From NCBI GenBank assembly GCA_021775525.1, contig JAJFHQ010000024.1, forward strand, positions 1 through 64,000: 64,000 nucleotides of DNA, written 5' to 3'. This DNA is from Hyphomicrobiales bacterium (GTDB taxonomy: Bacteria > Pseudomonadota > Alphaproteobacteria > Rhizobiales > Methyloligellaceae). The translations under genes were made by a program, and so were the position numbers. Below are positions 51,642-60,358 of this stretch, piece after piece (the first letter of the stretch is position 1; each line of letters starts with the position of its first letter). The notes below the pieces were generated by a model that was given only the letters and a program-made list of their open reading frames with translations, had not been told where the DNA came from and ran no database searches.

Positions 51642-51801
51642 GGGCTCTCAAAAAACGAATCAGTTGGTTGGCGCGTGATTGAATCTAATCAGAATTCGCG
51701 GCGCTTGCGAATCACCTCATGCAGCGCTCAACGCCGGTGGATAAGCTGGGGATGAAAAAACCCACATTCCGGCTACTCACCTCTATCCACCTGACCATCA
51801 G

Positions 51802-51837
51802 GCTCGGCCCGGACTCGGTTTTTGAGCCGCAATAGGC
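51802..51837. repeat. 36-bp repeat, left copy
   Basis: GCTCGGCCCGGACTCG, a variable 6-mer and GAGCCGCAATAGGC, in the 279-bp gap between dnaG and the YkuD gene. An identical 16+14 frame with another 6-mer lies at 53034-53069. Both read AYCGS..ESGPS in the same minus-strand frame. Apart from this, 51642-51920 holds nothing recognised. Confidence 0.55.
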
Positions 51838-51920
51838 GTGCTCCGCTAAACTCCCCTGCCCATCCCTTCCCGCTGACAGGGACGTGTGATCAGACCGTCC
51901 GGCATTCTCTAACGTCATCG

Positions 51921-52922
51921 TCACTTGCAAATCGGCAATGGGCGTGGCTTGCCCTTGGGAAGCGCGTCCCGCCATTCATTGATGATCGGCTGGAGGGTTT
52001 CCAGGGGCCAGAATTTGGGAGAGCTGATAAGCCTGAGGCAGGCCGTGTTCCAGTAGAGCCCGGAGCGCGACAGGGACTTCGTCTTCACCGCCTTTGCAAC
52101 GGCGTCGATGTCGCCGGATTCAGGATACATGTAGAGCGTCGTCGGGTTGTCGTGCACCATCGCGATAATTTTGCTGGAATCCGATGGCGACCAGGTCGTG
52201 CACCCGTTGCTGCGGCCGCTGGTGTAGTTCACCAGTTTACCAAAAGGAACATACCCCTCCTCGTCCGCATAGGGGCTTTTGGGGTTCTTGTAACGGCACC
52301 GCTTTCTCAAACCAACGGCCTGATGTCCGCCGATGGCCCTCTCCCAGGCGTTCGCGGTGTCGCCTTCCCCGACAAACGGCAGGAACGGGCGAACGAAGGG
52401 CGTCTTCTTGCCTGAACGGCGGTAATAGCCTTTGAACGACTCTCTCACCTCCGCCGTCATATAGACGCCGCCCGAGGTCAGGTTCGAGCCTTCCGCATTG
52501 CTGAAATTCTTCGCGCAGCGCCGCCCGTTCGAGAAATTCGCACGTCGCAGTTTGCGCCCGTTGCCATAGCCCGACGTCGTCGCGCGGAACGACTTGTCCG
52601 CCTCGCAAATAATGTAGAACCGCCGCCCCAGTTTACCACTGCCATCCCGGCTGGGACGCGTCGCATCCATGGCAAAATAGCAAGCGTTCTTGACCGCACC
52701 TTCGTCGACTTTTCGCCGGTAAAGCGCGCGGGCCCTCTTCAAAACCACTGGTGCGATCTTGCCCTCACCCGTGCCGACATGCACACGCAGCCACGCCGGA
52801 AATTCCGGGGTTTGCTCCGCCGCCCGTGAGAGGTGAGAACCCGACAGGGGAATGAGGATCATAGCGGTAATGGTCAGAAAGAGTGTTCTCAGTGGCAACG
52901 GGCGATTCTCCTTATTAAGCAT
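51921..52922 (-). CDS. Murein L,D-transpeptidase catalytic-domain family protein (YkuD_2)
   Basis: 333 residues. Residues 1-36 form a signal peptide (LPLRTLFLTITAMILIPLSG then HLSRAAEQ). The YkuD_2 domain has YFAMDATRPSRDGSGKLGRR, NAWERAIGGHQAVGLRKRC, and the catalytic Cys in YTSGRSNGCTTWSPSDS. It probably makes 3-3 cross-links or exchanges D-amino acids in peptidoglycan. It is flanked by the 36-bp repeat on both sides. Confidence 0.8.
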   Translation of the reverse strand: MLNKENRPLPLRTLFLTITAMILIPLSGSHLSRAAEQTPEFPAWLRVHVGTGEGKIAPVVLKRARALYRRKVDEGAVKNACYFAMDATRPSRDGSGKLGRRFYIICEADKSFRATTSGYGNGRKLRRANFSNGRRCAKNFSNAEGSNLTSGGVYMTAEVRESFKGYYRRSGKKTPFVRPFLPFVGEGDTANAWERAIGGHQAVGLRKRCRYKNPKSPYADEEGYVPFGKLVNYTSGRSNGCTTWSPSDSSKIIAMVHDNPTTLYMYPESGDIDAVAKAVKTKSLSRSGLYWNTACLRLISSPKFWPLETLQPIINEWRDALPKGKPRPLPICK

Positions 52923-53033
52923 CCTGAATACCGGCTTAGCATAAGTCGCCCGTCAAGTGGCTGCTGACAGGGCGTTCAGGGTCTCGGGGGACACGTGGGC
53001 ACCTGCATCGGCAACGATGACGATGCCACCGGC

Positions 53034-53069
53034 GCTCGGCCCGGACTCGATCATGGAGCCGCAATAGGC
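53034..53069. repeat. 36-bp repeat, right copy
   Basis: This copy matches the left copy at 30 of 36 positions; the changed bases are confined to the central 6-mer (ATCATG against GTTTTT). It lies in the 330-bp gap 52923-53252, where a 56-codon minus frame (52953-53123, GTG start, weak SD) also runs through it. Nothing else is recognised in that gap. Confidence 0.5.
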
Positions 53070-53252
53070 CGTAGATGCCTCGAGCCGGAACACCGTTACT
53101 GGCACAAAGCAAACATTCCTCACTCACGGGCTCGACGCCCTGATCAGCCTTGCGGGGCGATTCCTGAGCCCGTACTAAGGAGCTCAATCACAATGAATTC
53201 GGGCGCGAGGGCCTGAGAATTACCACCAACATGGCAAGGATCTGATACGGCA

Positions 53253-54056
53253 ATGCCTCCAAGCAAAAGAAAGCAGGCGCGCGCTTTCCAAAGTCAAATG
53301 AATGCAAAATGCCGTGCTTTGCTGAAGAATGGGTTGCCCCTCGATCACGACCAGAATGCCACGATTGTTCTTGCGTATATCTTCCGCCAAAAATTGCTTG
53401 AGCCCCGCAACACGAAACGAAGTGCGGATGTCGCGCGCACAGCCACAGCCATTTTCGAATTGTCGGTGCAGCGCAATCCCTCCGACCGGACAATCGACTG
53501 CAAAAAAGGATGTTCTTATTGCTGTTCCCGAACCGTGGGTATCAGTGCGCCGGAAGCTTTCCTGATTGCCGAGCAAATTTCCAGTTCTGACGCTCAGTTC
53601 CTGGAACGTGATGCCTATCTTGCAAGGGCACATGAAACGATCAGGATTGATCCTGACGACAGGTTTTCGAACCGCAAATTCTGTGCCCTTTTGAAAGATG
53701 ACGCCTGCTCAATATATACAGGACGGCCAATTGTGTGCAGGTCGAATACCTCGCACCAGGTTCAGGCCTGCATCGATGCATTTGACGGGAAAGACTCCCC
53801 AATTCCCGTCCCCAGAAGCCACATGTTCCTGGCTGATCGATGCCGGATGGCGATATATGCAGCGCTCCGGTCCCTGAACTATCCGGCTTTCAGTTACGAG
53901 ATGAGCGAAGCTGTCTCGCTTGTCCTGCGCGAAGACGCGGCCTCCGAGCGATGGCTGAATGGCGAAGATATATTTGCCGGCGTCCAGTCGCTGCCGGACC
54001 GCACGTCGGAAATGGACAATACAATCACCAGGATAGCCCGGGAAATACTGTTCTAG
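53253..54056 (+). CDS. YkgJ-family cysteine cluster protein
   Basis: 267 residues. A zinc/iron-binding Cys cluster is visible: DCKKGCSYCCSRTVGISAPE (about 82-101), then FCALLKDDACSIYTGRPIVCRS (about 143-164). This spacing is that of the YkgJ/Fe-S oxidoreductase-like family. The function of the family is unknown. The rest is helical, with a basic N-terminus (MPPSKRKQARAFQSQM). It stands before the HxlR remnant. Confidence 0.8.
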   Translation: MPPSKRKQARAFQSQMNAKCRALLKNGLPLDHDQNATIVLAYIFRQKLLEPRNTKRSADVARTATAIFELSVQRNPSDRTIDCKKGCSYCCSRTVGISAPEAFLIAEQISSSDAQFLERDAYLARAHETIRIDPDDRFSNRKFCALLKDDACSIYTGRPIVCRSNTSHQVQACIDAFDGKDSPIPVPRSHMFLADRCRMAIYAALRSLNYPAFSYEMSEAVSLVLREDAASERWLNGEDIFAGVQSLPDRTSEMDNTITRIAREILF

Positions 54057-54170
54057 CCCATGCTGCCGATTGCCCTGGAGATCAAGCTACGAATTCTCAA
54101 CGCGAATGTCGGGCACGTTAAACGGTGTCAGCTTTGGCGGGTTTAAGCGGACATCTCAACCTGAAGCTGG

Positions 54171-54275
54171 TCACAGGTTGCTCTCACCCCAATCCCGGAG
54201 AGCCAGCAGAATTGGCTCCAGGGTCTTTCCTTTCTCACTCAGAGCGTATTCAACATGCGGTGGAACGACCCCGGG
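54171..54275 (-). pseudogene. HxlR-family regulator remnant (C-terminal 34 codons only)
   Basis: The minus strand reads [20 protein letters not shown], then [14 protein letters not shown], then a stop, which is the C-terminal end of an HxlR winged helix (VEYxLTEKGxxLxPIL). An in-frame TAA at 54276-54278 cuts it off and no N-terminal part is found. The fragment is divergent from the zinc-type reductase at 54309, the usual HxlR-target arrangement, and is probably a decayed regulator. Confidence 0.75.
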
Positions 54276-54308
54276 TTAAGGTAATCCGCCAGCCAACGGA
54301 GATTTCCC

Positions 54309-55328
54309 ATGAAAGCAGTTGCTCTTACGCACTACCTCCCAATCGACGATCCGCAGTCGTTCATTGATATCGAATTGCCGAAACCGGAACCCAAAGGCCG
54401 CGACGTCCTGATCAGGATCGAGGCCGTAGCGGTCAACCCCGTCGACACAAAGGTGCGAAGGGGGCGCGGCAAGGAAGGCGCGGTCGAAGACCCGCCCCGG
54501 ATACTGGGCTGGGACGCAAGCGGCGTGGTTGAAACCATCGGGCCCGAGGTTAAACTGTTCCAGCCTGGTGACGCCGTCTACTACGCCGGCGACATTTCGC
54601 GTTCAGGCTCAAACGCCGAGTTTCATGTTGTTGATGAACGTATTGTCGGCCGCAAGCCAGCCAGTCTCAGTCATGCGGAAGCGGCCGCGCTGCCGCTCAC
54701 GACCATTACGGCCTACGAGGCCCTGTTCGACCGACTTGGCATTGATCGTGATGGCGACGACAAAGGTCAATCGATCCTGATCATCGGAGCAGGCGGTGGC
54801 GTTGGATCTATCGGCATCCAGCTCGCGAGGCAGGCCGGGCTGGCCATTATTGCGACAGCATCGCGCCCGGAAACGACCGACTGGGTGAAACAGCTTGGCG
54901 CCGATCATGTGATCAATCATCGCGAAGACATGGTGGCGCAGGTGCGCGCGCTCGGCATGCAACATGTCGATCACATCGCAATCTTCAACGACATGCGCCA
55001 TTGGGAAACAGCCGTCGAACTCATCCGCCCCCAGGGCGGGATTGTCTCAATCGACGACACTGACCTTCCCATGCCCATGGACGGCATGAAAATGAAAGCC
55101 GCCAGCCTTCATTGGGAGTTCATGTTCGCCCGCGCAATGCACCAGACGCCGGATATGATCGAGCAGCACAAATTGCTCGGCTGGGTGGCAGATGAGATCG
55201 ATGCCGGACGCATCCGCACAACCGTATCGGATGTTCTTTCGCCCATAAACGCGGCCAACATGCGAAAGGCCCACACTATGGTGGAAACCGGCACGACAAA
55301 GGGCAAGCTGGTTCTGGAGCGGTTTTGA
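54309..55328 (+). CDS. Zinc-type alcohol dehydrogenase-like/quinone oxidoreductase (MDR)
   Basis: 339 residues. N-terminal GroES-like domain (RDVLIRIEAVAVNPVDTKVR, then LGWDASGVVETIGPE) and a Rossmann domain with ILIIGAGGGVGSIGIQLARQ (about 156-175). No catalytic zinc cysteines are in the expected places, so it is a quinone/zeta-crystallin-like reductase using NADPH. GGAG precedes the ATG. Its former HxlR regulator is broken. Confidence 0.87.
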   Translation: MKAVALTHYLPIDDPQSFIDIELPKPEPKGRDVLIRIEAVAVNPVDTKVRRGRGKEGAVEDPPRILGWDASGVVETIGPEVKLFQPGDAVYYAGDISRSGSNAEFHVVDERIVGRKPASLSHAEAAALPLTTITAYEALFDRLGIDRDGDDKGQSILIIGAGGGVGSIGIQLARQAGLAIIATASRPETTDWVKQLGADHVINHREDMVAQVRALGMQHVDHIAIFNDMRHWETAVELIRPQGGIVSIDDTDLPMPMDGMKMKAASLHWEFMFARAMHQTPDMIEQHKLLGWVADEIDAGRIRTTVSDVLSPINAANMRKAHTMVETGTTKGKLVLERF

Positions 55329-55403
55329 GCAGGGGCATCAATTGAAATAATGACTGCATGAGAGGGTAAAGAGGGATTCCCCCCAGTCGGGTCTACACCC
55401 TGT

Positions 55404-55988
55404 TCAAATTTTTCGGGCGGATGCTGACCCTGTGCCTTGGCGTTCGATCACGATGAGTTCGGGCGCGGTGGACGGGGAATTGATCTGCCCATGTCGGGTG
55501 ACATGAAAGATTTGTGGCAGTTGCTGAACGTATGAGCGAACATCGGCTGCTTCGACGTCCCCGCCCGGATGCCCGGGATAGACCACAAGCGTGACAAGAC
55601 CATGGATTGCAAGATGGTTGAGGGCTTGACCGAGAGCATTGAGCGTGGTCTCGCTGCGGGTGATAATCTCTCTTGGCGCACCCGGCAGATAGCCCAGGTT
55701 GAACATCACCGCTGCAAGTTTTCCATGTCCTTCAGATGGCAAATGCGCTTCAAGCGCTTCATGTCCGGCGTGAATAAATTTTACCTGGGATTGTCCTCCC
55801 AGCCGCTCGGCTGCTGCTGCCAGGGCTATTTCCTGTACGTCGAACCCGAAGACGCGGCCCCGTGGCCCCACAAGCCCGGCAAGAAAGTGCGTGTCGTGGC
55901 CATTCCCCACCGTGGCGTCGACCACCCAGTCTCCGGGCTTTACAGCTTTGCGTATCAGGAGATGAGCCTGTTCAGTGGCGCGCATCAT
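55404..55988 (-). CDS. YtqB/MnmM-like class I methyltransferase
   Basis: 194 residues. Motif I is WVVDATVGNGHDTHFLAGLV (about 21-40). FGFDVQEIALAAAAERL is motif II, AAVMFNLGYLPG is motif IV with NLGYLP typical of this family (PF06962), and LVTLVVYPGHPGGDVEAADV follows. Bacillus YtqB was shown to be MnmM, which methylates nm5s2U34 to mnm5s2U34 in tRNAs. Its 5' end overlaps the FAD oxidoreductase gene by 17 bp, a strong coupling. It is a good candidate for the second step of wobble-U34 modification. Confidence 0.8.
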   Translation of the reverse strand: MMRATEQAHLLIRKAVKPGDWVVDATVGNGHDTHFLAGLVGPRGRVFGFDVQEIALAAAAERLGGQSQVKFIHAGHEALEAHLPSEGHGKLAAVMFNLGYLPGAPREIITRSETTLNALGQALNHLAIHGLVTLVVYPGHPGGDVEAADVRSYVQQLPQIFHVTRHGQINSPSTAPELIVIERQGTGSASARKI

Positions 55989-57042
55989 TGCTCACGAAAT
56001 GGGTTTGTACATCGACATCCTCGGGCAACGGGTTCCGGTGCACGAGGAAGTCGGCCAAACACTGGGCATACCAGGGCGCGTGCAATGAACCCTTCGAGCC
56101 CAATCCATTGAAATAGCCCAGCCGTTCCTCCTCGGGATGGAGACCCACCAGCGCCTTGCTTTCGCTGATGATGGGGCGCACCGCGGCACGGTGATCCAGC
56201 ACCGTGTACGGCAGGTGAAAAAACTCTTTGAGTTTGCTTTCAATCTCCGCACGCGCGGACGCGTTCGGCACCTGGTCCAGATTGTCCCAATCATAGGTCG
56301 AGCCAACACGGAAAACGTCCGGCTCTGCGGTGGGCGCAACCCAGATGCCGCGATGCAGGCTTTGAGGCAGCACGCGGTCGTGGAAGCGGACCGTCAAAAT
56401 ATCTCCCTTGGCCGCGAGAAAAGGCACCCATTGAAAATACGGATTGCGGGTGGCCGCAAACCCCTCGCAGGAGATGAGAGTGCGGGCCCGGCATCCGCTC
56501 ACAGAAACACCTTCAGCATCGAAGACCACGTCGCGGTGCCAGTCGAGGGTCACAGGTTTCCACTCCAACACCGCCCGGGAGGCGTCAAGATAGGCCACCA
56601 CGTCAAGCTGCGCGGCATTCATTGCGAAGCCTCCGCCACTGGCATCACCAAGCTTGGAGTCGAGTAACGGTGCGGGTTGCGGGCTGACCAAATGAGACCG
56701 GAAATCAGGCTTGCCACTGCGCGTGGACCAGTTTTCACGTTCTTCATCAGACCGGAACAGCCGCAGCGCAATGCGGTCATGGAAGAATGCCTGTCCCGTC
56801 TGCTTTTCAATCGAGGTGTAAAATTTCCGGGCCGCGGGAAGGAATTCATCATACCGCCTGCTCAGGGCCATACGCTTGCCCGTGATGGGGGTGATCAGCC
56901 CCGCAGCAATTTTGGAGGATGTCACGGCCTCCCCGGCGTCCAGCAGCAGGACACGCTGACCCTCCGCAATCAGGTGCCACGCCAGCGTCGTGCCTGCCAG
57001 CCCCTGGCCAACTATGATCACGTCCCAGGGCGCTTGCGCCAT
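55972..57042 (-). CDS. DAO-family FAD oxidoreductase, candidate MnmC(o)-like cmnm5(s2)U34 oxidase
   Basis: 356 residues. The dinucleotide-binding motif is WDVIIVGQGLAGTTLAWHLI (about 6-25), followed by LLLDAGEAVTSSKIAAGLIT and PITGKRMALSRRYDE. The C-terminal end has RPIISESKALVGLHPEEER and GYFNGLGSKGSLHAPWYAQC (GSKG). The fold is that of glycine/D-amino-acid oxidases and of the MnmC FAD domain. Coupled to the MnmM-like methyltransferase, it may oxidise cmnm5U to nm5U (inference from context; sequence alone only gives the DAO family). Confidence 0.72.
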   Translation of the reverse strand: MAQAPWDVIIVGQGLAGTTLAWHLIAEGQRVLLLDAGEAVTSSKIAAGLITPITGKRMALSRRYDEFLPAARKFYTSIEKQTGQAFFHDRIALRLFRSDEERENWSTRSGKPDFRSHLVSPQPAPLLDSKLGDASGGGFAMNAAQLDVVAYLDASRAVLEWKPVTLDWHRDVVFDAEGVSVSGCRARTLISCEGFAATRNPYFQWVPFLAAKGDILTVRFHDRVLPQSLHRGIWVAPTAEPDVFRVGSTYDWDNLDQVPNASARAEIESKLKEFFHLPYTVLDHRAAVRPIISESKALVGLHPEEERLGYFNGLGSKGSLHAPWYAQCLADFLVHRNPLPEDVDVQTHFVSNDARH

Positions 57043-57249
57043 GTCACTGTGGCTCCTGCATTACACAATGGCCCGGACCCTAGACCCTGGGTGAACGGGT
57101 TGCCAACTCAACGGGTGGAGCCAAGGGAGCCTGCAGATCATTATCTGTTCTCCGCACCCGAGGGATAAACAAAATATATTGATGACCTGACAGCATGAAG
57201 CTGGGCGGATATGGTCGCGGGCAAAAATAACCCCCAAAGGTCCAGCCAC

Positions 57250-57927
57250 ATGACGAATGCAGTTGACGAAGCAATAGTGAGCCGGCGTTCGGTACGTGCC
57301 TTTCTGCCCAATCCGGTGCCGCGTGAAACGGTGGAGCATCTGCTGGAAGTGGCAAGGCAGGCGCCGAGTGGCACCAATACCCAGCCCTGGACGGTGCGGG
57401 CGCTCTCAGGCGCGGCCAAGGACGAGCTGTGCAAGGCGGTGCATCATGCCCATGACACCGAGGCTGAGAAACACAGCTATTCCTATAAATATTATCCGGC
57501 AGAAATTCCCGAGCCCTACATCTCGCGGCGGCGCAAGGTCGGCTGGGATCTCTATGGCCTGCTCGACATCAAGAAGGGGGAGCGGGAAAAAACCCACATC
57601 CAGCACGGGCGCAATTACCTGTTCTTCGACGCGCCGGTCGGTCTCATCTTCACCATCGAAAAGGTGATGGAACAGGGCAGCTGGCTCGACTATGGCATGT
57701 TCCTGGAAAACATCATGGTGGCGGCGCGGGGTGCAGGACTGCACACCTGCCCGCAGGCCGCCTGGGTGCAATATCACCGCGTGGTCATTGATGTGCTCGA
57801 CATCCCGGACACGCAAGAAATCGTCTGTGGTATGGCGCTTGGTTATGAGGACGAAAACGCCCCGGAAAACACGCTTCGCACGGAACGCGAGCCCGTGTCA
57901 GGTTTCGCTACGTTTCAAGGGTTTTGA
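57250..57927 (+). CDS. Nitroreductase-family FMN oxidoreductase
   Basis: 225 residues from the ATG at 57250; an earlier in-frame ATG at 57211 would give 238 residues and cannot be excluded. Motifs: SRRSVRAFLPNPVPRETVEH (FMN phosphate Arg), QAPSGTNTQPWTVRAL, and AARGAGLHTCPQAAW, then IVCGMALGYEDENAPEN. It reduces nitro or quinone compounds with NAD(P)H. Divergent from the FAD gene; its C-terminal codons overlap the convergent gene at 57915. Confidence 0.87.
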   Translation: MTNAVDEAIVSRRSVRAFLPNPVPRETVEHLLEVARQAPSGTNTQPWTVRALSGAAKDELCKAVHHAHDTEAEKHSYSYKYYPAEIPEPYISRRRKVGWDLYGLLDIKKGEREKTHIQHGRNYLFFDAPVGLIFTIEKVMEQGSWLDYGMFLENIMVAARGAGLHTCPQAAWVQYHRVVIDVLDIPDTQEIVCGMALGYEDENAPENTLRTEREPVSGFATFQGF

Positions 57928-58208
57928 TCTGGCAATCTGGCCGTCTTGCTTTCGCCCGACAAAGGTTCATGCGCCTCGCCAGGCATGATGAATTCCTTGA
58001 TCGTCATCTCCAGCAGGTAGCGCACAAAACCAAACTCCGGATGGGAGAGCTGTCCCTGAACAGCCAAAAGCGTTTTGTGGATGGCCATGAATTCCTGGTT
58101 CGATATGGTCTCATAGGTCTTGTGGGCCACGGCAAACTTCTTCGACTCCGGTTGTTCGGCCGGTTGTTGTTTGATCTCGGTTGGTTTTCGCTCAGATTCG
58201 CTCGACAT
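57915..58208 (-). CDS. Hypothetical small acidic protein
   Basis: 97 residues from the ATG at 58208 (GGAG about 9 nt upstream); an in-frame start at 58310 exists. A disordered polar N-terminus (MSSESERKPTEIKQQPAEQ) is followed by a helical core FMAIHKTLLAVQGQLSHPEF and FVRYLLEMTIKEFIMPG. No family recognised. The 3' end overlaps the nitroreductase stop by 13 bp. Confidence 0.5.
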   Translation of the reverse strand: MSSESERKPTEIKQQPAEQPESKKFAVAHKTYETISNQEFMAIHKTLLAVQGQLSHPEFGFVRYLLEMTIKEFIMPGEAHEPLSGESKTARLPDQNP

Positions 58209-58410
58209 TTGTTCAGGCTCCGCATCGCCATCATAAGGATATGAAAATAGAAAATACGAGACGGTGGCGGCCCCCTTGGGGACAGCCTGCCTCGCCGCCT
58301 CGCTGTTCAAATTGATGGTGATTATGGGAGGGTCTTTAGATAAAAGCAGCTGTATTACTGTTATGTAACAGTAATGACAGCAAGTAAACTAAGAGAAATA
58401 TACTTTTGTC

Positions 58411-60183
58411 TCAACCTGTTGGGCCAATCATCAGCCCCGCGTCACGAAGACCATCTAGCAAATCCGCGAGGAACGCCTCGGGGAAATTCCAACCGGACAG
58501 TTCCGACCTGGGTGACACGACGAATTTCGGAAATTCAGTCTTGAGATGATTCGCCGCCTCGTTTGCCGCAGCGGTCCGATCGAGTTTACCGTTCACAGCC
58601 GCCCGCGCCACGGACGAAAGCAAAACCTGGGGTTGGTAATAGGCCAGCGCGTGCGTCAGCGCCCGCTCGTAATTTTTCTGGTGGTAATAATACGCAAACA
58701 GTATCCCATGGTACCAGGGAGGGTGACCCGGGTTCAGCCACACTGCCTTTTCAACCAGTGATTTGCCAAGTTCCCAATCTCCAAGCTGGGTATATGTCCA
58801 GCCTGCGTCCGCAAGGATATCGGCATCGTTGGGATTGAGGGCCAAAGCAATTTTCATGTTGCGCCTGGCACCCGGGAGATCCTTTTTCAGTAGGGCTACT
58901 AACGATGCATATTGATGCGCTCTTGCGCTTTCCGGATTGATCTTTAGGGCTTTTTTTGCGGCATTCTCCGACCTTCTCAACGCGTCCTCAACGCTTGAGA
59001 TGAGATTGTAGCCGTAGCGAATTTCATCTCCGTAAATCCAAGATAACAACGCCCAGGCTTCTGTATAGTCGGGTGTTTCCTTCACAGCATTTTCAAGACA
59101 ATCCCTCATCCGCGCATGCTTGGCCGCAGACCTATTTCTCGCATATGCATAATGGGCCAAAACGCATTTGTACGGAATGAGTGTCTTGTTTACATTGCCC
59201 TTCAAACGGCGCGTTTCCATGCGCTGGACAACCCCGTAAGGCTGACCTAGCCGGGCCGCAATTTCGCCGATAATTTTCGTCTGGATATGGAAAAGATTGT
59301 CAGGCCGGATATTCTCCTCCGACGCATAGGACCAGGTATAGGTGCCGGTGGACATTTCCAGCAGTCGCACCTCGATACGGGTTTTTTCGCCGGAGCGTTG
59401 CAAAGACCCCTCGACCACATAATTGGCATTCAGCCTGGTGGCGATTTCATAAGGGCTCAAGTTATAGCCCGAGAAAACCTTGACTGTTTCCCGCCCAAGC
59501 ATCCTGAGAGACTTGAATCTCGTGAGGTCATTCAGAAGCTGGTGGTCAAAACCATCGGCGAGTTCAGCCGTGTCCCCCGGGCCAAGGGGTTTGAGCGGCA
59601 AAATGGCAACTGTCGCCCCTGCGGGCCGCTTCAGGATTGCTTCCAGTTGGGATTCCAGGCTCAACGTTGCATGTCTCTCCCCGAACCCCATGACCTGTGT
59701 ATAAAAAATAATGCCGGAGACCGCGCCAATCACGACCAGAGAAAACGCCGCCAACGCGACGTCTACGACACTCATCTTCCGGATAACGGCAACAACCCGA
59801 TTCCCCGGCGTTTGATCCAGCCGTGACTGACGCTTGAAGGACGGCACATAGGTACCGGTGGCCACGGATATTTTTACGGGATCATTCCTGCCCTGCCCTG
59901 AATAGTAGGTAGCCAGCACGCGTCGCAGCCTCGTGGCATCGACCCTTACAGATGCATCATGCTCGGGGTCGAAACTGTCCGGCTTGCCAAACACTTCAAC
60001 GCCAATGGTATAGCCCTTGAGCTGTTTGGCCGACCCCTCAAGGGTCATATCGACAATATATTTGAGAAAGTCCGAGAGCCTGGGCGAGCGTTGAAACAAA
60101 TCGCTTTCCAGTAAGCGCGCCAACGCTGCCCGGATTTCATTGGCCGGTATCGATGACGTCTCTCTTTTAGATGCCGCACTCAT
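58411..60183 (-). CDS. Membrane-anchored winged-helix/FlgO-like/TPR protein
   Basis: 590 residues from the ATG at 60183; a longer in-frame start (60270) is unlikely. Residues 15-115 form a winged-helix-like domain (FDPEHDASVRVDATRLRRVL then ISVATGTYVPSF). One transmembrane helix is at about 140-162. Residues 180-320 form a TolB/FlgO-type domain (LADGFDHQLLNDLTRFKSLR, then LNANYVVEGSLQRSGEKTRI). Residues 350-560 are TPR repeats (YTEAWALLSWIYGDEI, ALALNPNDADILADAGWTYT). The layout is that of CadC/ToxR-like one-component sensors and adenylate-cyclase-like TPR regulators, but the DNA-binding role is inferred. Confidence 0.72.
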   Translation of the reverse strand: MSAASKRETSSIPANEIRAALARLLESDLFQRSPRLSDFLKYIVDMTLEGSAKQLKGYTIGVEVFGKPDSFDPEHDASVRVDATRLRRVLATYYSGQGRNDPVKISVATGTYVPSFKRQSRLDQTPGNRVVAVIRKMSVVDVALAAFSLVVIGAVSGIIFYTQVMGFGERHATLSLESQLEAILKRPAGATVAILPLKPLGPGDTAELADGFDHQLLNDLTRFKSLRMLGRETVKVFSGYNLSPYEIATRLNANYVVEGSLQRSGEKTRIEVRLLEMSTGTYTWSYASEENIRPDNLFHIQTKIIGEIAARLGQPYGVVQRMETRRLKGNVNKTLIPYKCVLAHYAYARNRSAAKHARMRDCLENAVKETPDYTEAWALLSWIYGDEIRYGYNLISSVEDALRRSENAAKKALKINPESARAHQYASLVALLKKDLPGARRNMKIALALNPNDADILADAGWTYTQLGDWELGKSLVEKAVWLNPGHPPWYHGILFAYYYHQKNYERALTHALAYYQPQVLLSSVARAAVNGKLDRTAAANEAANHLKTEFPKFVVSPRSELSGWNFPEAFLADLLDGLRDAGLMIGPTG

Positions 60184-60358
60184 GAGCCATGTGCAACGGG
60201 CCTGTTGTGTCAGGCCCGCCCTCCCAACACAAGCAAACACTAGCATTGTGCCCAATGTTCGGCAAAACACATACGGGCCTTTGGATAAAACCCAGAAGGC
60301 AAAAATGTTTTAAAGAAAAGAAAAGTCCAGAAGAACAAATAAAACGTTGGGGAACACC

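Follow-up and report, generated by a model that had tools for sequence, protein, structure and literature searches.

An overlapping flavin oxidase and MnmM gene pair as a candidate finishing unit for wobble-uridine modification in a Hyphomicrobiales bacterium

Here, we describe two overlapping genes of a Hyphomicrobiales bacterium that would together finish the modification of the tRNA wobble uridine. They lie in a stretch of 64,000 nucleotides (assembly GCA_021775525.1, contig JAJFHQ010000024.1, positions 1-64,000; genome 86% complete), which was analysed as a whole and is called the window below. One gene encodes an oxidoreductase of the DAO family that depends on flavin adenine dinucleotide (FAD), the other the methyltransferase MnmM. 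Sequence comparison makes it quite probable that the FAD enzyme strips 5-carboxymethylaminomethyl-(2-thio)uridine at position 34 (cmnm5(s2)U34) of its carboxymethyl group and that MnmM methylates the product, the two genes forming a stand-alone bicistronic unit that replaces MnmC. In what we regard as the best reading, the pair would be a third way to 5-methylaminomethyl-(2-thio)uridine (mnm5(s2)U), besides MnmC and MnmL-MnmM. An earlier note on this DNA had likewise proposed that a coupled pair replaces the bifunctional MnmC. Family tests, linkage, gene fusion, co-occurrence and the searches that found neither MnmC2 nor MnmL speak for that proposal, whereas the FAD protein fails the model for MnmC1, the FAD domain of MnmC.

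Two overlapping genes and their protein families

The pair consists of two open reading frames (ORFs) with the following features:

55972-57042, minus strand: gene of a DAO-family FAD oxidoreductase, ORF of 356 amino acids; proposed cmnm5(s2)U34 demodifying oxidase, MnmC(o)-like
55404-55988, minus strand: mnmM, gene of a tRNA nm5(s2)U34 methyltransferase (activity by family), ORF of 194 amino acids
55972-55988, minus strand: overlap of the 3' end of the FAD gene with the MnmM start codon, 17 bp
56176-56178, minus strand: codon of Arg289 of the FAD protein, aligned with Arg-567 of MnmC and the conserved arginine of ThiO; proposed carboxylate-binding residue

The two overlapping minus-strand genes, the 17-bp overlap (which assumes that the first of two successive ATG codons is the MnmM start) and the motifs VIIVGQGLAG, SSKIAAGLIT, DATVGNGHDT and NLGYLPG are all present as the earlier note had described them. 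The predicted start of MnmM within the end of the FAD gene is a layout typical of translational coupling. The pair forms a stand-alone unit. It is flanked by a divergent nitroreductase gene, which starts at 57211, and by a zinc-type dehydrogenase gene in convergent orientation, which ends at 55328.

The 194-amino-acid protein belongs to the MnmM family, in agreement with its earlier description as a YtqB/MnmM-type methyltransferase. The NCBIfam equivalog model NF053511 gives it 194.6 bits (cut-off 135); it matches the Pfam family 'rRNA_methylase' (PF06962) at 2.8e-38, and its best sequence matches in the PDB are YtqB structures (8h0s at 6e-44); methylation of nm5(s2)U34 is the activity predicted by family. 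The available text of Cho et al. 2023 (PMC9976899) gives seven residues as essential in Bacillus subtilis MnmM: K11, D34, N101, Y104, K110, Y141 and H144. Five of the seven are identical in the window protein (D32, N97, Y100, Y137 and H140), and the other two are substituted, K110 by R106 and K11 by H9. These numbers were transferred by offset from the alignment to 8h0s, and the K11 position lies two residues outside the start of that alignment. The solved homologue 3eey also has a histidine at the K11-equivalent place.

The 356-amino-acid protein is a DAO-family member (Pfam, 3.6e-28), and the Pfam scan found no MnmC2 domain within its ORF. Its AlphaFold model has a mean predicted local distance difference test (pLDDT) score of 91. 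We propose that Arg289 holds the carboxylate of glycine or of an N-substituted glycine, such as cmnm5U carries, by analogy with the role of the equivalent arginine in glycine oxidase. In the alignment, each of the 25 family rows and each of the 22 Bacteroidia rows has this arginine, but so do 12 of the 13 outgroup rows, and it is therefore a marker of the enzyme class, not of the substrate. According to the available part of the source (PMC3648344), Arg-567 of MnmC is kept in more than 98% of 140 MnmCs, and the FAD-domain residues conserved at this level are G271, G273, G287, G518, R567, G578, G619 and R653. Residues G12, G14, G28, G247, R289, G300 and G318 of the FAD protein are aligned with and identical to such positions, R653 having no counterpart; most of these residues are also common to ThiO and other DAO rows.

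The proposed pathway would begin with MnmEG making cmnm5(s2)U34; of its two parts, the search covered MnmG, which was found in the genome (831 bits). The FAD enzyme would oxidise the carboxymethylamino arm in the way that glycine oxidase treats glycine, its carboxylate being bound by Arg289, and the resulting imine would hydrolyse to glyoxylate and 5-aminomethyl-(2-thio)uridine (nm5(s2)U34). MnmM would then methylate the amine with S-adenosylmethionine (SAM), which would make mnm5(s2)U34 the nucleoside of this organism. For the MnmEG and MnmM steps, this scheme relies on what is established for the two families.

Linkage, fusion and co-occurrence

Within the order of the window organism, MnmM and the FAD protein were each found in 8 of 121 genomes, and these are the identical 8 genomes. 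The FAD gene lies directly upstream of MnmM in all seven other pair genomes, one FAD gene being cut by a contig end (L036, left out of the alignment, which hence covers 7 of the 8 genomes). Among relatives, the junction varies between a gap of 3 bp and an overlap of roughly 14 bp (starts judged by alignment), and all six MnmM proteins of relatives in the order that were scanned exceed the MnmM cut-off. The linkage is far beyond chance, and the pair is rare and sporadic in the order. Three other genomes of the window's own family have neither gene, and for five of the other pair genomes a completeness of 99-100% is given. A sample of 289 genomes of the class gave no further MnmM above the cut-off and no further FAD protein at 1e-15. 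MnmM family matches occurred in 173 of the 289 and were not used: only the window's own was over the cut-off, the rest were weak, and the listed rows were mostly short stretches.

The earlier suggestion to look for an mnmC fusion elsewhere in the genome was followed with the MnmC2 model PF05430, which gave no match in the 86% complete genome, hence no MnmC fusion was found, and none in any of the seven other pair genomes. For MnmL, which we take to be YtqA, we assumed TIGR01212 to be the model: no genome among the 121, the window's own included, was over the cut-off, with weak matches in all 121, and 13 of 14 control genomes matched, 6 of them over the cut-off. Many genomes of the order have neither MnmM nor MnmC2. 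Bartonella is a member of Hyphomicrobiales. The available text of PMC10965804 reports it with cmnm5s2U but without mnm5s2U, which is in line with those genomes.

Two MnmM genomes with PF05430 matches (G408 and G413) were rejected as MnmC2 carriers, at 63.1 and 29.9 bits against a cut-off of 136; one protein is Tgt with an MnmC2-like tail, the other spermidine-synthase-like. In the genome behind locus L066, a Tgt (L099 1345-3267, 408.8 bits) has an MnmC2-like domain at its C-terminus (63.1 bits against the cut-off of 136), joining an enzyme for queuosine at position 34 to a relative of a U34 methylase. The window's order also holds a full-length MnmC-type fusion (L041 1174-2868; MnmC2 241.1 bits, cut-off 136; MnmC1 184.4 bits, cut-off 174.2), whereas alphaproteobacteria lack mnmC(o) according to the available text of Cho et al. 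2023 (PMC9976899). Ten MnmC2 loci of the order were inspected, and four of them have a FAD gene of the DAO type standing divergently next to the MnmC2 gene:

L040 2220-3356: DAO gene beside MnmC2
L043 2213-3361: DAO gene beside MnmC2
L045 2261-3307: DAO gene beside MnmC2
L049 2267-3358: DAO gene beside MnmC2

Three of these four group together in the tree described below, as a separate clade outside both the window family and MnmC1, and this clade is a further candidate for the missing MnmC(o).

Beyond the order, a scan of genome contigs with the alignment of the FAD protein gave 28 loci with a FAD homologue, and MnmM adjoins or is fused to it in 18. These 18 come from bins of Hyphomicrobiales and other alphaproteobacteria, one doubtful 'Akkermansia' contig, one Verrucomicrobiae genome and two genomes of Schlesneria (Planctomycetes). 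The FAD protein of the Verrucomicrobiae pair (L077) is 31% identical to that of the window. In both Schlesneria genomes, FAD protein and MnmM form one ORF (570 and 564 amino acids), with the FAD part first and the methylase second; the C-terminal part of the one scanned scores 183.8 bits, over the MnmM cut-off. The model of the fusion (mean pLDDT 89, predicted template modelling score 0.67) shows two folded domains and between them, from about residue 357 to 381, a disordered linker. The pair is thus not peculiar to one alphaproteobacterium, being sporadic in the order, present in a Verrucomicrobiae genome and fused in Planctomycetes.

The remaining 10 loci comprise three cut by contig ends (L055, L074 and L078), two of Hyphomicrobium (L062 and L063) and five with distant homologues (L071, L072, L073, L075 and L076). 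When eleven window genes were compared with the loci of the scan, only the pair recurred throughout; a window-like dehydrogenase accompanies it in L065, and other window neighbours gave two remote matches (25-29% identity) in L055 and L070. Protein distances of FAD protein and MnmM co-vary (r = 0.88, Mantel p 1e-4) over 17 loci, namely the window and 16 of the 18 adjacent loci, the cut loci L052 and L070 being left out; shared descent would give such a correlation as well. Six loci of the order (L033, L034, L035, L036, L037 and L039) are apparently the same records as L054, L053, L058, L070, L067 and L064 and are not to be counted twice. A plasmid search with the FAD protein gave no match.

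Several of these loci have features of their own. In the Hyphomicrobium loci, the FAD gene (L062 287-1342, L063 3965-5080) is followed, directly or after a small ORF, by an ATPase gene that we take, by its sequence, to be of RarA type. The label Akkermansia muciniphila of the L066 contig is doubtful, given a bin of 5.8 Mb and a FAD protein within the Hyphomicrobiales clade; its short upstream ORF resembles, by eye, the ORF upstream of the L077 pair. A bin labelled Arenicellaceae has MnmM (L093 1429-2019, 151 bits) and a FAD homologue (L073), unlinked. In the window, about 8.7 kb (51642-60358) separate dnaG and yqeY, which are close neighbours in many alphaproteobacteria, and this is possibly a variable spot; the interval contains the FAD-mnmM pair, a YkuD-like gene, a CxxCxxCC gene, the dehydrogenase, the nitroreductase and a tetratricopeptide repeat protein.

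The strongest outside evidence for the step proposed for the FAD enzyme comes from Bacteroidia. Among 16 genomes behind the loci, the four with a Bacteroidota-type FAD protein (G411, G412, G414 and G415) possess MnmC2 but nothing that exceeds the MnmM cut-off; in G413, MnmM lies elsewhere in the genome, unlinked to the FAD homologue. Across 198 Bacteroidia genomes, a FAD homologue was found in 142 and an MnmC2 match in 146: both in 123, only FAD in 19, only MnmC2 in 23 and neither in 33 (odds ratio 9.3, Fisher p 3e-10, statistics that ignore kinship between genomes). The homologue adjoins MnmC2 in at least 9 of the 123 genomes, where a rough estimate would predict about 0.16. Five of the nine pairs are arranged head to tail with some 15 bp between the genes, and in the four divergent pairs the starts are separated by about 730-750 bp; the one adjoining MnmC2 that was checked scores 205.7 bits (cut-off 136). 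In 13 of the 19 FAD-only genomes, the locus was fetched and showed neither MnmM nor MnmC2 beside the FAD gene, the whole genomes not having been searched for MnmM. A single FAD family is thus linked to two methylases that are unrelated but serve the same pathway. This argues strongly for a shared preceding step, and the family may also supply the missing step in many Bacteroidota. We lean, with some reserve, towards a wider proposal: an unnamed flavin oxidase family, distinct from MnmC1 and MnmL, would fill the place of the missing MnmC(o)-like enzyme in several phyla. It would partner MnmM in Hyphomicrobiales and Verrucomicrobiae, be fused to it in Planctomycetes as a second, independently built MnmC of reversed order, and serve the orphan MnmC2 in many Bacteroidia.

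Ancestry and function of the FAD enzyme

A tree of 60 rows separates the family of the window and the proteins of Bacteroidia (47 rows together, including 22 loci of our choice among 80 fetched from Bacteroidia) from MnmC1, ThiO, DadA, SolA and other DAO proteins with support of 100/99. By this analysis, the FAD protein belongs to a well-supported, unnamed family of its own. Either an independent recruitment or a very old offshoot of MnmC1 would be compatible with the tree. The 'MnmC-FAD-domain character' claimed by the earlier note applies only loosely: the DAO family is right, and the protein lies below the cut-off of the MnmC1 model TIGR03197 (62.2 bits, cut-off 174.2) and, in the free tree, outside the MnmC1 clade, although a sister position to MnmC1 was not rejected.

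The family could be a very diverged MnmC1, so that the pair would be a split MnmC1 with a swapped methylase. This concerns ancestry only and is compatible with the proposed function; we hold it to be possible, though not the favoured origin. The six family members scanned score 44-93 bits with the MnmC1 model, highest in a Bacteroidia member beside MnmC2, and the family has an LGS[K/R]G stretch preceding the C-terminal helix in common with three gammaproteobacterial MnmC1 rows, not with the alphaproteobacterial one. A tree constrained to a clade of the family and MnmC1 was not rejected (p 0.425). All these scores fall below a cut-off that an alphaproteobacterial MnmC exceeds with 184.4 bits, however, and the free tree sets MnmC1 among other DAO rows, apart from the family.

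It is unlikely that the FAD protein is a small-molecule oxidase of the glycine or sarcosine type (ThiO-like) that is merely located beside mnmM. The nearest solved folds are indeed glycine oxidases and CmiS2 (best Z 34.2, root mean square deviation 2.8 over 339 residues, for a glycine oxidase), ahead of iminodiacetate oxidase (Z 31.4) and MnmC (Z 31.2, 3.5 over 341). The fold search thus did not separate ThiO from MnmC as nearest relative, and the fold alone does not decide between them because MnmC1 is itself structurally closest to glycine oxidase, as stated in the available part of PMC3648344. The ThiO model TIGR02352 gives 59.3 bits (cut-off 250.8), about equal to MnmC1; it is ahead of MnmC1 in 4 of the 6 family members scanned and behind it in 2, and a clade with ThiO was not rejected (p 0.146). 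The comparison of both proteins by profile and structure, which the earlier note had suggested, placed MnmM in its family, with a score over the cut-off, and left the FAD protein below both models, its fold not separating the two. Against a ThiO-like oxidase stand the FAD-MnmM fusion in two genomes, the adjacency to the unrelated methylase MnmC2 in Bacteroidia and the occupation of the same genomes of the order by FAD gene and MnmM. Among eight neighbouring window genes scanned (one without any match), there is no thiamin family, whereas the three ThiO genes fetched for comparison all adjoin thiS.

It is very unlikely that the FAD enzyme serves the MnmM pathway at another step, for instance on nm5U or as electron donor of MnmEG, with a substrate other than cmnm5U: linkage does indicate a shared pathway and not a substrate, and some genomes with the FAD gene lack a known methylase, but DAO oxidases for glycine, sarcosine and iminodiacetate act on glycine or N-substituted glycines, as present in cmnm5U, the arginine of MnmC1 is kept, and the PF05430 and TIGR01212 searches found no other known demodifier in the genome.

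Removal of the carboxymethyl group followed by MnmM methylation remains our preferred function of the pair, and several observations weigh against it. The two Hyphomicrobium genomes (L062 and L063) have the FAD gene with neither MnmM over the cut-off nor MnmC2; they may end at nm5U, be incomplete or use the FAD enzyme differently. Genome G417 (behind L055) has no MnmM, and its FAD gene stands at a contig end. Exclusion between the pair and MnmC2 is not significant, with MnmC2 over the cut-off in 0 of 8 pair genomes against 27 of the 113 without the pair (p 0.20; p 0.35 with the 24 of 113 strong MnmC2 genomes). In Bacteroidia, the 19 genomes with only the FAD gene and the 23 with only MnmC2 count against the association, as does the kinship ignored in its statistics. 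The FAD protein is far below the MnmC1 cut-off, with ThiO the better model in most members scanned, and the tree tests rejected neither MnmC1 nor ThiO as sister of the family. Lastly, Lys11, given as essential in B. subtilis MnmM in the available text of the source, is a histidine in the window protein.

Comparison with known systems

The earlier note had assumed that Bacillus uses an unlinked FAD enzyme. This is outdated: the table of a 2025 review lists MnmL at the demodifying step (PMC12548931), the available text of an eLife paper (PMC12245174) describes ytqA as a gene of this pathway that codes for a radical-SAM protein with a predicted role in tRNA modification, and the title of a cited paper ties MnmL to Gram-positives. 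The available text of Cho et al. 2023 (PMC9976899) describes the MnmC(o)-like enzyme of MnmM organisms as unknown and considers that lineages with orphan MnmC2 (Bacteroides, alphaproteobacteria) likely have one. We found no literature report of a FAD enzyme paired with MnmM; the primary MnmL paper (Jaroch et al. 2024) lay outside this search. The FAD family is a concrete candidate demodifier for other lineages, and linkage, fusion and co-occurrence connect it with both methylases. If the proposed function is true, the finishing module has been assembled from another enzyme pair than in E. coli or Bacillus; on the wider proposal for the family, different enzymes would have taken over the demodification of the wobble uridine on at least three occasions. 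A tRNA modification relevant to decoding would then have been completed repeatedly by enzyme swaps, while some relatives omit the last steps.

Like MnmC of gammaproteobacteria, an MnmC2-MnmC1 fusion, the pair would combine FAD-dependent demodification with subsequent SAM-dependent methylation of the wobble uridine. Both have the DAO fold and the conserved arginine, and Schlesneria also has a single polypeptide. In contrast to MnmC, the methylase is MnmM and not MnmC2, the FAD part lies outside the MnmC1 model and, in the free tree, outside the MnmC1 clade, the window genes are separate and overlapping, and the Schlesneria fusion has the reverse order. With MnmL-MnmM of Bacilli (radical-SAM YtqA and YtqB), the pair shares the MnmM methylase family and the use of two separate genes in place of MnmC, but its proposed demodifier is a flavin oxidase and not a radical-SAM enzyme. 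ThiO glycine oxidase shares the fold and the carboxylate arginine, whereas the FAD protein is far below the ThiO cut-off and has no thiamin family in the neighbours scanned. Orphan MnmC2 (MnmD) of Bacteroidota co-occurs with a FAD homologue as MnmM does here and adjoins it in at least 9 of the 123 genomes with both, the difference being that the methylase is MnmC2 instead of MnmM.

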